Origin: Actinomycetes bacterium
GTDB lineage: Bacteria; Actinomycetota; Acidimicrobiia; Acidimicrobiales; Ilumatobacteraceae
Assembly: GCA_029782355.1 (NCBI GenBank)
Contig: JAKOUY010000037.1
Span: forward strand, 1-64,000
Direction: 5' to 3'
Length of the DNA: 64,000 bases
Position numbers and translations under genes: made by a program. This document shows positions 5,293-42,165 of this stretch, in pieces. The first letter of the stretch is position 1. Every line of letters starts with the position of its first letter. The notes beneath the pieces are model-generated. The model searched no databases and was not told the DNA's origin. It worked only from the letters and a program-made list of their open reading frames with translations.

Positions 5293-5324
5293 TCCGCAAC
5301 CCGGCCGATCGAGCAGGCACGGCG

Positions 5325-6992
5325 GTGGCATCGTCCTACGGCGACCTGGTGGCGGCCGCGAGGCGAGTGGCTGCCCAGCCGGCCCGATCGGACAAGACCC
5401 GGTCGCTGGCGGACTACCTCCGGACCGTCCCCCCGGACGAGATCCCGATCGCCGTCGGCCTGCTGCTCGGCCGTCCCCGCCAGGGCCGCCTCGGCGTGGG
5501 ATGGTCGACCGTCGCCGACCGCCGCCCTGTCGAATCGTCAGTGACGGAACTCGGGCGACCCGGCGTGTTCCGGTCGTCTGTCGAACCGTCTGTGACGAAG
5601 TCCCTCGGTGGCGAGGCCCGGGAGCCCGCTGTCGAATCGTCAGTGACGGAACTGGCCGGGGCCGTTGCGTCACGGACGGTTCCACCGGGCGTGGGGTGGG
5701 CCGGGACGGCCGACGGAGTTTCGTCACTGACGATTCGACAGGTGGACGAGGCGATGACCCGGCTGGTGGAGGTGGGCGGCGCCGGGTCACAGGCCGAGCG
5801 CGCCCGACTGCTCGATGAGCTGTTCACCCGCGCCGGCATCGACGAGCAGCGCCACCTCCGCCAGGTGCTGACCGGTGAGGTCCGCCAGGGGGCCAACGAG
5901 GGCGTCGTGGCCGAGGCCGTGGCCCTGGCCGCCGGCGTTCCGGCGGCGTCGGTGCGTCGAGCGGCAATGCTGCTCGGCGATCTCGGCGCGACGGCGCGGC
6001 GGGCGCTCGCCGGGGAACCGCTCGACGACCTCGGTCTGCAGGTGCTCGTCGGCGTCCAGCCGATGCTGGCCAGCACCGCCGCCTCGGTCGAGGCGGCCCT
6101 GGCCGAGATCGGTACGGCCAGTGTCGAAGCCAAGTTGGACGGGGCGCGCATCCAGGTCCATCGGCGCGGCGAGGAGGTGCGCATCTACACCCGCAGCCTG
6201 CGCGAGATCGCCGCGTCCGTCCCCGAGATCGTCGACGCCGTCGCCTCGCTCCCCGGTGGCGACCTGGTGCTCGACGGCGAAGCCCTAGGACTCGACGAGG
6301 ACGGCCACCCGCTGGCCTTCCAGGACACGATGAGCGGCGGGTCTCGCCTCTCCCCGTTCTTCTTCGACGTGCTCCACGCCGAGGGCGTCTCGTTGATCGA
6401 TCGACCGCTCGGCGAGCGCCGCGCCCACCTCGCCGAGCTCGTGCCGGACCGGCTCCGGCTGGCGTCGATCGAGACCGCTGACCCCGCGGTCGCCGCCCGC
6501 TTCGCCGCCGACGTGCTGGCCGCCGGCCACGAGGGCGTCATGGTCAAGGCGCTCGACTCGACCTACGCCGCCGGGCGGCGGGGCAAGGCCTGGCGCAAGG
6601 TCAAGCCGGTGCACACCCTCGACCTGGTGGTCCTGGCCGCCGAGTGGGGAAGCGGTCGCCGGGTCGGCTGGCTGAGCAACCTGCATCTCGGCGCCGGCGA
6701 CGGATCGGGCGGGTTCGTGATGGTCGGCAAGACGTTCAAGGGGCTCACCGACGAGCTGCTCACCTGGCAGACCGAGGCCCTCCAGCGCATCGCCCTCGGG
6801 AGCGACGGGCCCGTCGTCCACGTCCGGCCGGAGCTGGTGGTCGAGGTGGCCCTCGACGGGGTGCAACGCAGCCGGCGGTATCCGGGTGGGGTAGCCCTGC
6901 GCTTCGCTCGGGTGCGCCGCTATCGACCTGACAAGCGCCCGGCGGAGGCCGACCACATCGACCGGGTCCGGGCCATGCTGCCCACCCGGTAG
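5325..6992 (+). CDS. ATP-dependent DNA ligase with repeat-expanded N-terminal linker
   Basis: About 555 residues. Motif I is E-A-K-L-D-G with the AMP-accepting lysine at about residue 270, followed by the adenylation and OB domains; the ending R-Y-P-G-G-V-A-L-R-F fits bacterial LigB/LigC-type ATP ligases, which seal nicks alongside the NAD-dependent LigA. The start is GTG 5325 (V-A-S-S-Y-G-D-L), with GAGCAGG upstream; the frame is open much further 5' but that overlaps the crotonase. Residues about 69-139, between a G-V-G-W strand and the helix L-T-I-R-Q-V-D-E-A, are occupied by the repeat array. The G-V-G-W segment occurs on both sides of the array (about residues 57 and 122), so the insertion appears flanked by a duplicated stretch. 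The active-site region looks intact. Confidence 0.9.
   Translation: MASSYGDLVAAARRVAAQPARSDKTRSLADYLRTVPPDEIPIAVGLLLGRPRQGRLGVGWSTVADRRPVESSVTELGRPGVFRSSVEPSVTKSLGGEAREPAVESSVTELAGAVASRTVPPGVGWAGTADGVSSLTIRQVDEAMTRLVEVGGAGSQAERARLLDELFTRAGIDEQRHLRQVLTGEVRQGANEGVVAEAVALAAGVPAASVRRAAMLLGDLGATARRALAGEPLDDLGLQVLVGVQPMLASTAASVEAALAEIGTASVEAKLDGARIQVHRRGEEVRIYTRSLREIAASVPEIVDAVASLPGGDLVLDGEALGLDEDGHPLAFQDTMSGGSRLSPFFFDVLHAEGVSLIDRPLGERRAHLAELVPDRLRLASIETADPAVAARFAADVLAAGHEGVMVKALDSTYAAGRRGKAWRKVKPVHTLDLVVLAAEWGSGRRVGWLSNLHLGAGDGSGGFVMVGKTFKGLTDELLTWQTEALQRIALGSDGPVVHVRPELVVEVALDGVQRSRRYPGGVALRFARVRRYRPDKRPAEADHIDRVRAMLPTR
5528..5740 (+). repeat. Array of five 24-25 nt repeats inside the ligase gene, 51-nt period
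   Basis: Three direct copies start at 5528, 5579 and 5630, exactly 51 nt (17 codons) apart. Copies 1 and 3 agree over at least 24 nt; copy 2 differs at several positions. Two inverted copies follow at 5663-5686 (diverged) and 5717-5740, the last differing from copies 1 and 3 by one base. Each has a small palindromic core, CGTCAGTGACG in the best copies. Direct copies encode V-E-S-S-V-T-E-L or a variant; the last inverted copy encodes S-S-L-T-I-R-Q. Copies 3 and 4 are inverted neighbours 8 nt apart and could form a REPIN-like hairpin. No cas genes are present and the array lies in an open frame. Confidence 0.9.
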
Positions 6993-27283: not shown

Positions 27284-28675
27284 CTCGGCGTCCTCGTCGG
27301 CCAGGACCCGCAGGTGCCGGTGGGGGACGTCGCACCACCAGCTCAGCCCCAGCGCCACGGCGACACCGAGGAACATCACCGGCCGGGCCCCGACCGCGTC
27401 GATCACCGGCCCGATAACCAGGTTGCCGACGGCCACGGTGCCGCCGAAGGCCATGAACCACAGCGCCATGATCCGCGGTCGCTCGAAGCTGCGCACGTTC
27501 TGCTGGATGACGGTCAGCTTGGCGGTGGCCATGGCGAAGTAGAACCAGCCGAGGACGAAGGCCACCGGGAACGCCGGGGTGACCGAGCGCAGGGCGGTGA
27601 ACACGGCCAGCGAGGCGGCGAACCCGATCAGCAGCGGGCGGATCAGCCGGGCCTTGTCCGTCTGGGCCAGGACCGTGCCGAGGGTGAGTGCCCCGACCAG
27701 AGCGCCGAGACCCCACGTGGCGTACAGCCACTTGTAGGTCGCGGTGCGCGAGTCGAGCCCCAGGTTGAGTCGGGTGATCGGGGCGAACAGTCCGACCCAG
27801 CACAGGCTGAAGAACGAGAACAGGGCCATGCCGGCGATCAGCCGGCCGAGGACCGAGCGATGCGCGGCGAGGCGCACGCCGTGCAGCACGTTGGCCCACC
27901 CCCGAGCATCGGTGGCCTGCTCGCGCGCCGGGAAGCGGACGGCGACGATGGCGGCGATGACGAACAGGTACGACGCCGCGTTGACCAGCAGGATCTGGCT
28001 GGTGGTCACGCCGCGAGCCATCAGCACCGCGGCGATCACCGGGCCGAGGACGCGGGAGCCGTTGATCCCCACCGAGTTGAGGCTGACCACGCCGCCGATG
28101 TCACGCGGATCGACCATGTTCGGCAGGACCGCCTGCATCGCCGGGTTGTTCAGGGCGTTGCCGACGCCGCTGATCAGCTGGGCGGCGAGGATCCAGCCGA
28201 GGTCGGTGTGGCGCGACACCATCACGGCGAGCACCACCGCCATGCCCAGCTGCAGCGCCTGCATCGTGGCCAGCCAGGCCTTGGGCGGGAAGCGGTCGGC
28301 CAACACCCCGCCCGGCACCGAGAGCAGCAACACCGGCCCCAGCAGGGCGAAGGTGAACAGCCCGACCCACAGTCCCGACTTGGTCCGCTGATCGATGTAC
28401 GCCGGCAGCACCACGGTCTGCATCCACGTCCCGACGTTGCTGATCATCATCCCGCTCCACAGCAGGCGGAACCGGCGGTTGCGCAGCACGGCGGCGATGG
28501 TGCCGTGGCGTGGTTCGGCACCGACGGCTGGGCTCGTGCCGGACGCTGAGCTGGCCGCGGATGCGGCACTGGCGGCGGACGCTGTGCTGGCCGCGGATGC
28601 GGCACTGGCGGCGGACGCTGAGCTGGCGGCGGACATAGGCGCGCCGACGAGCCTACGAGCGGCCTCGCCGCTCAC
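27185..28675 (-). CDS. MFS transporter (enterobactin exporter EntS-like subgroup)
   Basis: 496 residues. After an unusual 45-residue Ala/Ser tail, the MFS core starts at about residue 60 (F-R-L-L-W-S-G-M-M-I-S) and continues to W-W-C-D-V-P-H. The family includes DUF894/EntS-like exporters; the substrate is unknown. The last 30 or so residues come from antisense murF sequence and look like an extension after loss of an earlier stop. Two starts are possible: GTG 28675, only 5 nt after the hairpin, or ATG 28636; neither has a clear Shine-Dalgarno sequence. Confidence 0.85.
   Translation of the reverse strand: MSGEAARRLVGAPMSAASSASAASAASAASTASAASAASAASSASGTSPAVGAEPRHGTIAAVLRNRRFRLLWSGMMISNVGTWMQTVVLPAYIDQRTKSGLWVGLFTFALLGPVLLLSVPGGVLADRFPPKAWLATMQALQLGMAVVLAVMVSRHTDLGWILAAQLISGVGNALNNPAMQAVLPNMVDPRDIGGVVSLNSVGINGSRVLGPVIAAVLMARGVTTSQILLVNAASYLFVIAAIVAVRFPAREQATDARGWANVLHGVRLAAHRSVLGRLIAGMALFSFFSLCWVGLFAPITRLNLGLDSRTATYKWLYATWGLGALVGALTLGTVLAQTDKARLIRPLLIGFAASLAVFTALRSVTPAFPVAFVLGWFYFAMATAKLTVIQQNVRSFERPRIMALWFMAFGGTVAVGNLVIGPVIDAVGARPVMFLGVAVALGLSWWCDVPHRHLRVLADEDAELGESVAADEGVGHPLQPGDTAGFDQHGIAAGD
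28542..28634. repeat. 36-bp tandem repeat in the MFS N-terminus
   Basis: About 2.6 copies of a 36-nt unit begin at 28542, 28578 and 28614. Each encodes 12 residues of alternating Ala and Ser (S-A-A-S-x-A-S-A-A-S-A-A). Copies 1 and 2 differ by a single visible base. The frame is maintained, giving a flexible low-complexity cytoplasmic tail. Confidence 0.85.
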
Positions 28676-40359: not shown

Positions 40360-42165
40360 TCAGCCGGCCACGTGGTCGACGTCCAGGACGACGGCCTCGT
40401 GGCCGCCCGCCGAGACGGCGGCCTGGCCGTGGGCGACCTCTACGACGGCCGCCCCGGTGCAGCTGGTGGCCAGCACGTTGCAATAGCGACCGGGCGCCAG
40501 CGCCGTGGGCACCGCGCCCTGGACGGCGGCGGCGGACACGTTGACGACCGCCAGGCCGCGGTCGCGGCGCGCCAGCACCACCAGGTCACCGATGGCCGAT
40601 CGGCTGACCGGGGTTCCCGCGACGGTCGCTCGATACCGCAGCATCGCCGTGACATGGGTCAGGCGGTGCGAGCAGGTCCATGGCGCGGTGCCGCACACGG
40701 CGTCGGCGACCGAGCCGTCGGGTCCCTCGGGCGGCCCGGCATCTCGATCGGAGAACGCGTACCCGGAGAACAGCTCGGGCAGGCCGTAGTCGTCGGCCAG
40801 CAGGACGATCTCGGCGAGACGGTGCAGGGCGGCATCGGCGCGGGTCACCGACTGGCCGTTGCGCTCGGTGTCGTGGTTCTCCACGAACGACACGGCCTGC
40901 GCGCTGGGCAGCGCGCCCGTGCCGGCCGTGACGATGTTGCCGGCGATGGTCAGGCTCAGGGCTTGGGCCAGCTTGCGGCTGTAGGCGAACTCGTAGACCC
41001 GGCCGAAGGAGGTGTACTGCTCGGGGGTGATCGGCTCCCCGCCGCCGCGGATCACCTCACTGAAGACGGCGGTGCCGGCCGGAAGCCCGGCCAGGATGGC
41101 CTGCAGGTCGGTGGGGGCGATGTGCTTGGCGGCGTCGATCCGGAACCCGTCGACGCCGAGGCCGACCAGGTCGGCCAGGAACTGGTGCAGCCGCTGGCGG
41201 ACGTTGGGTCGGCTGGTGTCGAGATCGGCGAGGTTGACCAGCTCGCACGTTTGCACCTGGGCGGCATCCTGATAGTTGGCGATGTCGTCGTCGGGCGTCA
41301 GCCCGCAGTGGTGGAAGTCGGCCGACGTCCACAGTCCTGGGTACTCGTAGTGCCGGTACGGCGAGCCGGCCACCCCCACGCCGTCACCGGCGGCCATGTG
41401 GTTGATGACCGCATCGACCAGCACGGACACCCCGGCTCGGTGGCAGGCCTCGATCATCGCCGAGAAGGTGTCCGGCGTGCCCAGCTTGGAGTGCAGCGAG
41501 TCGCTCACCGGCTGGTACGAGGTCCACCACTGGGGGCCGCGGATCGACTCGACGACCGGCGAGGTCTGGACGAACCCGAACCCTTGCGCCGCCAGTGCCG
41601 GGCACTCGGCGGCGATCGCCGACCAGGTCCACTGGAACAGCTGCACCCCCACCCGCCCGTCCACCGCCACGTGGCTCGCGCCAGACCCGGCACCCCCGCC
41701 AGTCCCGCTCCCCGCACTCCCGGCCCCGGCGGCCCCTGCTGCCCCGCTCCCCGCACTCCCGGTCCCCCCGGCCCCGGTCCCCCCGGTTTGCTTGTGTGCG
41801 GAAACCGTCGCATGCGGAGGTTTGCGCACCCATGCAACCTGGTCGCGTGCGGAAACCGTCGTCTGCGGAGGTTTGCGCACGCGAGCAGCGGTGGGGGTGG
41901 GGGGTGAGATCGTGCGGGCCGTGGGGGTGGGGGTGGCGACCAGGGCGAGGGGTGGCGTCAGGGTCAGGGCGAGGGGTGATGTGAGGGTTCGGGCGAGGGG
42001 TGGCGTGAGGGTGAGGGCGAGGGTTAGGGCGAGGGGTGGGGCGAGGGCCAGGGGGAGGGCCAGGGGGAGGGCCAGGGGGAGGGCGAGGAGGGGGGCGAGG
42101 AGACGGGCGGTGCGGGCCCGTCGGGGGCGGGTGATGGTGCGCGGAAGGGCTCGCCCGGAGGCCAT
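40360..42165 (-). CDS. Secreted alpha-amylase (GH13) with repeat-rich leader
   Basis: 601 residues. The catalytic domain from about residue 165 (V-G-V-Q-L-F-Q-W-T-W) carries D-A-V-I-N-H, the nucleophile in D-G-F-R-I-D-A-A-K-H, the acid/base in F-S-E-V-I and the third acid in F-V-E-N-H-D. It hydrolyses alpha-1,4 bonds in starch or glycogen outside the cell. Ahead of it lie an Arg-rich start, a long Leu/Ala/Pro/Thr run (about residues 22-80) of repeated A-L-P-L-A-L and T-L-T-P-P-L units, a 17-residue repeat in two copies (about 95-125) and a Gly/Ser/Ala-rich linker. The signal peptide is degenerate. No convincing Shine-Dalgarno precedes ATG 42165. Confidence 0.9.
   Translation of the reverse strand: MASGRALPRTITRPRRARTARLLAPLLALPLALPLALPLALAPPLALTLALTLTPPLARTLTSPLALTLTPPLALVATPTPTARTISPPTPTAARVRKPPQTTVSARDQVAWVRKPPHATVSAHKQTGGTGAGGTGSAGSGAAGAAGAGSAGSGTGGGAGSGASHVAVDGRVGVQLFQWTWSAIAAECPALAAQGFGFVQTSPVVESIRGPQWWTSYQPVSDSLHSKLGTPDTFSAMIEACHRAGVSVLVDAVINHMAAGDGVGVAGSPYRHYEYPGLWTSADFHHCGLTPDDDIANYQDAAQVQTCELVNLADLDTSRPNVRQRLHQFLADLVGLGVDGFRIDAAKHIAPTDLQAILAGLPAGTAVFSEVIRGGGEPITPEQYTSFGRVYEFAYSRKLAQALSLTIAGNIVTAGTGALPSAQAVSFVENHDTERNGQSVTRADAALHRLAEIVLLADDYGLPELFSGYAFSDRDAGPPEGPDGSVADAVCGTAPWTCSHRLTHVTAMLRYRATVAGTPVSRSAIGDLVVLARRDRGLAVVNVSAAAVQGAVPTALAPGRYCNVLATSCTGAAVVEVAHGQAAVSAGGHEAVVLDVDHVAG
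41796..41880 (-). repeat. Two palindromic 34-nt elements in the amylase gene, 51-nt period
   Basis: Copies at 41796-41829 and 41847-41880 are identical except for two bases in the loop, and start 51 nt (17 codons) apart. Each has arms GTGCGGAAACC and GGTTTGCGCAC, which pair with one mismatch; copy 2 extends its arms by CGC/GCG to 41844-41883. They encode V-R-K-P-P-Q-T-T-V-S-A-R and V-R-K-P-P-H-A-T-V-S-A-H in frame. Confidence 0.9.
41890..42110. repeat. G-run-rich imperfect repeat tract in the amylase leader
   Basis: On the plus strand this 220-nt stretch is built of units such as AGGGCGAGGGGTGG and the 12-mer CCAGGGGGAGGG in three consecutive copies, with G-runs of 3-5 every 4-8 nt. It can form G-quadruplexes on the template strand of the amylase gene. 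It encodes the Leu/Ala/Pro/Thr leader; unit variation is mostly frame-preserving. Confidence 0.85.

Follow-up and report, generated by a model that had tools for sequence, protein, structure and literature searches.

The window (the whole 64,000-nucleotide stretch of DNA that was analyzed) contains a gene for an ATP-dependent DNA ligase, and inside the reading frame of that gene lies an array of palindromic repeats. This locus raises the question of whether the array belongs to the ligase as a protein or to a family of DNA repeats and, if the latter, how such repeats come to occupy coding sequence.

The ligase gene and its repeat array

The features of the gene and its array are as follows:

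5325..6992, + strand: ATP-dependent DNA ligase, 555 amino acids, with domains DNA_ligase_A_N, DNA_ligase_A_M, and DNA_ligase_A_C
5526..5742, + strand: in-frame repeat array, extending the linker by 59 residues beyond the usual 32
5532..5546, + strand: core of unit 1, direct (whole unit approximately 5526-5551)
5583..5597, + strand: core of unit 2, direct, with two changes from GAATCGTCAGTGACG
5634..5648, + strand: core of unit 3, direct
5668..5682, - strand: core of unit 4, inverted, forming a hairpin with unit 3 (window 5626-5692, z = -2.98)
5722..5736, - strand: core of unit 5, inverted, on the conserved (S)LTI codons

The ligase start codon was set by homology, through comparison of the N terminus with those of orthologues. 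Between the two parts of the ligase N-terminal domain, there are five copies, in the order +,+,+,-,-, of a unit of approximately 26 nt, CCCTGTCGAATCGTCNGTGACGNAAC. A sequence-only reading of this DNA had described three direct and two inverted copies with the direct ones 51 nt apart, and this is borne out by the cores, of which the direct ones begin at 5532, 5583, and 5634 and the inverted ones at 5668 and 5722. The array, which that reading placed at 5528-5740, is present but extends slightly farther on both sides. Searching the window for CGTCAGTGACG with up to one mismatch gave 10 strand-hits, of which 8 fall at the five array places (three of which match on both strands); shuffled windows gave a mean of 3.72 matches and reached 10 in 1 of 100 shuffles. 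The spacers within the array are unlike one another, and third-position GC is 0.69 in the array versus 0.91 before it and 0.92 after it. Because the ligase frame is intact, with no stops across the array, the repeats are presumably translated within the ligase. When window positions 5300-6000 were searched against Rfam, there were just three matches, each of them weak and none within the array. It had also been suggested that a G-V-G-W segment was duplicated around the array, but the best DNA alignment was equaled or beaten by 321 of 1,214 windows of the same gene and by 1,630 of 8,129 windows elsewhere and is therefore not above chance. Tandem repeats were also seen at other positions in the window: dense GC-rich ones with overlapping periods of 12, 24, 36, and 39 at 41686-42100 and a 36-nt repeat (2.6 copies, 94% matches) at 28540-28634.

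The linker was measured from the end of the G-x-G-x-G-W motif as far as the glycine motif that follows in a set of 25 orthologue loci (L111 to L135), with the distant ligases L136 to L139 left aside. It comprises 91 residues in the window versus 32 to 35 at all 25 loci (34 at L111, 32 at L112, and the remainder at the 23 further loci, L113 to L135); at 21 of them, including that of G013, a genome of another genus, it is exactly 32. Therefore, 59 residues have been gained over the usual 32. As judged from these comparisons, the array is an in-frame insertion that lengthens the linker by those 59 residues, as the sequence-only reading had it, and the insertion is absent from all 25 other ligase loci. 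A lone exact 15-nt core was seen at L128 (G106), on the minus strand at 732, approximately 1.8 kb downstream of the ligase linker; it lies outside the linker, no partner was found for it, and it is perhaps due to chance and perhaps not.

Within three mismatches, the 19-mer GAATCGTCACTGACGATTC occurs at only one of the 25 other ligase loci, that of G013. The ligases of G013 and of the window's own genome (G000) are 64% identical, and both are occupied at the linker site; no core was present in the closer ligases of G078, G102, and G014 (68 to 69% identical). These results bear on the explanation that the array reflects ordinary repetition or conservation of the ligase at the protein level, with no DNA element involved. 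SLTI is indeed a conserved ligase motif that is also present in other solved ligases. However, the 19-mer is missing at this threshold from 24 of the 25 other loci, the closest included, and the word is not confined to the ligase, as there are four other clusters in the genome, three of them intergenic. We regard the protein-level explanation as refuted.

A dispersed family of convergent units

The own genome is represented by a 3.79-Mb assembly that is 98% complete. With up to three mismatches, a 20-mer matched it 17 times, versus no matches for the reversed control. The 15-nt core, with up to one mismatch, gave 24 matches, 21 of which lie in five clusters, all shorter than 300 bp:

ligase: one cluster
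contig C19: clusters near 48.0, 146.0, 215.5, and 311.5 kb

On a 29-position matrix derived from the 21 units, the units range from 17 to 50, and the three matches outside clusters all fall below 16. With up to two mismatches, there were 86 core matches versus 2 for the reversed control; 62 of the 86 carry two mismatches and are scattered over the genome, and near-cores are thus frequent in this GC-rich genome, probably as a background from codon bias. Since 16 of the 21 units lie outside the ligase, the earlier idea of a dispersed palindromic element is upheld. Two of the five clusters are inside genes (ligase and sufD), and the other three are intergenic: one is next to truA, one next to a glucanotransferase gene, and one next to both an HTH gene and a gene of the ArsA type. 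Contig C19, which makes up 10% of the assembly, holds four of the five clusters, a concentration that was noticed after the fact. Near 46-48 kb of C19 (L033), phosphate-transporter genes and a gene that, by our own reading of its sequence, we take to be PhoU-like lie between truA and a gene presumed, on inspection of its sequence, to be rplQ, and a short tandem repeat of the GGTGAGCCC/GGTGGGCCT type follows directly after the repeat cluster upstream of truA (L033:3690-3790). In G013, rplQ and truA are direct neighbors.

The own-genome unit can be written CCCTGTC-GAATCGTC-NGT-GACGNAAC. Eleven of the 15 core positions are identical in all 21 units, and unit positions 9 and 16 vary freely. A single unit pairs over just 4 to 5 bp around a 3-nt loop; the bare 19-nt palindrome, which carries no tag, pairs over 8 bp around a loop that is also of 3 nt. 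In all eight clusters with both orientations (five in G000, two in G013, and one in G261, a genome of another family, in which the + unit is diverged and was recognized as an inverted arm), every + unit precedes every - unit, so that the units converge, in keeping with the REPIN-like inverted pairs suggested earlier; this count excludes two bare palindromes and the contig ends C60 and C189. On single-strand folding, seven of seven pairs were more stable than their shuffles, at most 1 of 200 shuffles reaching the same stability (z = -2.98 to -9.86 for five G000 pairs and -3.66 and -3.96 for two G013 elements). Convergent pairs can therefore fold into one long hairpin, and units multiply locally into arrays. 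Near-identical tandem copies of 50 to 51 nt at L033 and L035 support local slippage; however, the unlike spacers of the window array mean that plain tandem slippage is not a full explanation. Two G013 elements (L037:6757-6912 and L041:3612-3762) have a common inner palindrome, GATCTGGGYGCC, between their outer units, and the first of them provides the final codons of an open reading frame (...SESSVTK). G013 contigs C60 and C189 both end at the repeat, with 49 bases identical between them, so that a single place may have been counted twice in their hits.

Among 200 genomes of the family, more than one match (with up to one mismatch) was found only in G000 (17 matches) and G013 (10 matches, plus two bare palindromes). 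A single match was present in 19 others, and the reversed control gave 4 matches in 3 genomes. In the order, 87 of 397 genomes (a sample that did not include G013) had a match with up to two mismatches, and almost all of these matches were solitary or on separate contigs. The only one of the 397 with matches in one cluster was G261, where two matches 43 nt apart are accompanied by an inverted partner and an inner inverted repeat. The lone matches (in the 19 family genomes and most of the 87 order genomes) were taken as background; four genomes with lone matches (G057, G426, G048, and G291) were inspected more closely. The bare palindrome was matched in 5 of 298 order genomes, including the own genome and each time with two mismatches, in a sample that likewise did not include G013, and GAATCGTCACTGACGATTC was exact in none of 14 other genomes scanned beside G013. 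A scan of GTDB contigs, from which own-genome records may be absent, gave seven lone matches in unrelated groups, which were taken as chance, as by our own arithmetic approximately seven are expected when 18 fixed bases are sought in 2 x 257 billion. Viral contigs yielded two lone matches and no bare palindrome, and Rfam gave nothing at gathering score on 11 loci. Two sites are occupied in both G000 and G013, namely, the ligase linker and the rplQ-truA stretch.

The convergent arrangement recalls two kinds of mobile DNA. The pairs form hairpins like those of REPINs in the available text of PMC3116915, and movement by a genome-encoded RAYT might be supposed, the search for which had been suggested with the sequence-only reading. 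However, Y1_Tnp had no match in any of the three carriers, G000, G013, and G261 (the last just 78% complete), and the 2 of 10 searched genomes with matches are G011 and G018, for which our repeat scans gave no cluster; we disfavor a RAYT and consider it highly improbable. (In G011, five Y1-transposase-like matches were seen, at L233 and L235 to L238, four of them above the cutoff.) The clusters could also be internally deleted MITEs with terminal inverted repeats of approximately 26 nt, served by an ordinary DNA transposase. Their ends are convergent and inverted (CCCTGTCGAATC...GATTCGACAGGG), and the inner palindrome common to the L037 and L041 copies would fit such an element. Against this, visual inspection of four G000 clusters, for which there was no empty site for comparison, revealed no direct target duplications; no longer copy with a transposase between unit ends was found, the 21 own-genome units all lying in short clusters; and the in-gene cores of G013 leave gene length unchanged. 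We therefore think an origin of the clusters from MITEs improbable.

Cores within genes at native length

The perfect 19-nt palindrome GAATCGTCACTGACGATTC occurs exactly twice in G013, in the ligase and in purD. In the G013 ligase, whose linker has exactly the usual length, it lies on the S-L-T-I codons where the window array ends; the unit 5 core of the window and the bare palindrome of G013 thus occupy the same (S)LTI codons. The purD stretch with the core does not differ in length from that of the three homologues caught, namely, those of G068, G053, and the own genome; of two alignments with solved structures, that of 2ip4 is gap free and that of 2yrw is two residues shorter. In a G013 gene that we take, from its neighborhood and relatives, to be glcE, a 24-nt segment matches a G000 unit, and the stretch around it comprises 28 residues versus 27 to 28 in six relatives. 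A 22/23 match in G013 sucD aligns gap free to E. coli SucD, but the match is weak (PWM 21.8) and is the weakest of the native-length cases. The segment of G000 sufD that holds a convergent pair encodes 19 residues, one fewer than the 20 of the two nearest relatives, but the other three caught are longer. The sufD core is probably also without lengthening, although the length argument is weak here and insertion plus deletion is possible. Homologue loci missed by the motifs were dropped (GlcE L201 and L226; PurD L214, L223, L224, L227, and L228). At L038:3010-5265 (G013 contig C13), one open frame spans the PurD (GARS) and PurM (AIRS) domains, as a fusion or a missed stop.

The native-length cores in ligase, purD, glcE, and sucD of G013 argue against simple insertion for in-gene cores. 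They also qualify the earlier description of a mobile or amplifying element: the family is dispersed and locally multiplied, but movement by simple insertion is hard to reconcile with in-gene cores that leave length unchanged. It seems to be by substitution or overwriting that cores come to lie inside genes, with the window array as a local expansion. In purD, the relative L222 already has ELTLRD in place of the SLTIRD of G013, and solved ligases conserve the xLTI motif, so that the ligase and purD sites resembled the core beforehand.

On balance, we think it probable that these repeats are a REP-like family of short interspersed palindromic DNA, found in a few Acidimicrobiales genomes, that seeds at near-matches and then expands locally and that, as far as the three carriers show, does so without a RAYT. 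A core would arise at a sequence that already resembles it, either by templated overwriting (through annealing of a single-stranded hairpin or template switching at a replication fork) or by selection in place, and slippage and inverted duplication would then enlarge it into an array. The ligase array probably grew from a core already on the (S)LTI codons, because the G013 ligase has a perfect 19-nt core there with its length unchanged; we infer the order of events. Spread by overwriting can be proposed only tentatively: a 19-nt hairpin word would be written over near-matching coding DNA, with frame and length kept and a tolerant peptide (ESSLTI or ESSVT), and such seeds would later grow into arrays. 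We infer this step from five coding sites in two genomes. For the spread of cores within a genome, overwriting is a candidate mechanism only, neither donor nor enzyme having been found.

A serious rival, if also an unlikely one, is that the core is a selected binding site of a putative DNA-binding protein, chromosome organizing or regulatory, which evolves in place and of which the arrays are multiple sites. This would be in line with a perfect palindrome at native length in the G013 ligase and purD, with the rplQ-truA clusters and ligase codons common to G000 and G013, and with the 11 core positions invariant in every own-genome copy. It is less easily squared with a family sample in which only G000 and G013 have more than one match or with the 24 of 25 other ligase loci that lack the 19-mer within three mismatches. 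Sites of the parS and matS kind gather near the origin or terminus. In G011 (4.83 Mb), the orthologous genes do not gather: truA lies at 0.97, mrp at 1.08, purD at 2.64, glcE at 2.92, and ligase at 2.98 Mb, with parS at approximately 4.826 Mb; sufD and glucanotransferase orthologues were not found in that genome. As the orthologous genes are spread out in three complete relatives, gathering of a parS- or matS-like type was rejected. The five or six loci located in these relatives all lie at least approximately 0.8 Mb from the parS-marked origin, a point on the side of a binding site but from too few loci to weigh.

Comparison with known repeat systems

Rickettsia palindromic elements are translated in frame inside housekeeping genes. 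The present family is like their description in that a palindrome lies in frame in a housekeeping gene; unlike them, it has cores in several genes at native length. In the sections of PMC3733652 drawn on here, RPE-4 and RPE-6 are CGTC REPs. The same sections describe CGTC- and GTAG-tagged REPs as short palindromic units, mostly in inverted pairs with spacers mostly of 20 to 100 bp, that often lie downstream of genes and are sometimes intragenic, as in the DNA ligase of O. terrae and in tRNA pseudouridine synthases (PMC3733652). The present family resembles these in its short palindromes, its convergent pairs, and its copies inside genes, including a DNA ligase (compare the cited sections of PMC3733652). 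The kind is therefore already known, in that intragenic REPs, one of them in a DNA ligase, are published in that part of PMC3733652. A CGTC REP is defined there by a CGTC (or TGTC or CCTC) tag, a stem of 8 to 9 bp starting with AT, a loop of 4 to 5 nt, and a CCA tail (PMC3733652). In contrast, the present unit has a stem of 4 to 5 bp, a 3-nt loop, and no CCA tail, and its consensus, unlike GTAG REPs, has no GTAG beside the stem; nor is there a CGTC tag next to a stem of 8 to 9 bp, and the unit fits neither super-family. TGTC precedes the core in most G000 units and in few if any of the G013 units compared. Some in-gene cores of the present family, unlike CGTC and GTAG REPs, are without lengthening. 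The words Actinobacteria, Actinomycet, Streptomyces, Frankia, and Acidimicrob are absent from the main text of PMC3733652.

As in Pseudomonas REPINs, inverted doublets fold into a hairpin and ordered clusters occur; those REPINs go with RAYT genes in the available text (PMC3116915), whereas no RAYT was found in the carriers studied here. Copy number in the own genome is just 21 units, with three of five clusters intergenic. The RepRanger survey, in the portion available, gives predicted REPs from the intergenic regions of many genomes, and Acidimicrobium ferrooxidans has a row in its table, with entries of 2,283 and 152 in the final two count columns; REP candidates near the Acidimicrobiales group are thus already published (PMC12306157). 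However, that survey is a rule-based count of any stem-loop between genes only, and the sequence of the present unit was not seen in the portion available (PMC12306157). In Nematomorpha mitochondria, inverted repeats lie inside coding sequence while the protein is conserved; unlike the present units, these are long repeats within mitochondrial genes, and the abstract describes no single dispersed word (PMC6649704). Among the papers listed or consulted, our literature search found none naming the present repeat, and a text search for CGTCAGTGACG returned four papers, on other subjects by title. The family itself and the in-gene cores without lengthening (ligase, purD, glcE, and sucD of G013 and probably sufD of G000) thus appear to be new.

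The CGTC REPs are without a dedicated transposase, and the cited sections of PMC3733652 ask how such repeats move; for this puzzle, the present family is a compact test case. Its merits are few copies, no RAYT found, the same ligase codons bare in one genus and expanded in another, and genes that are not lengthened. Comparison of strains could separate overwriting, binding-site selection, and transposition, and overwriting, if true, would offer repeats a route of movement that needs no transposase.
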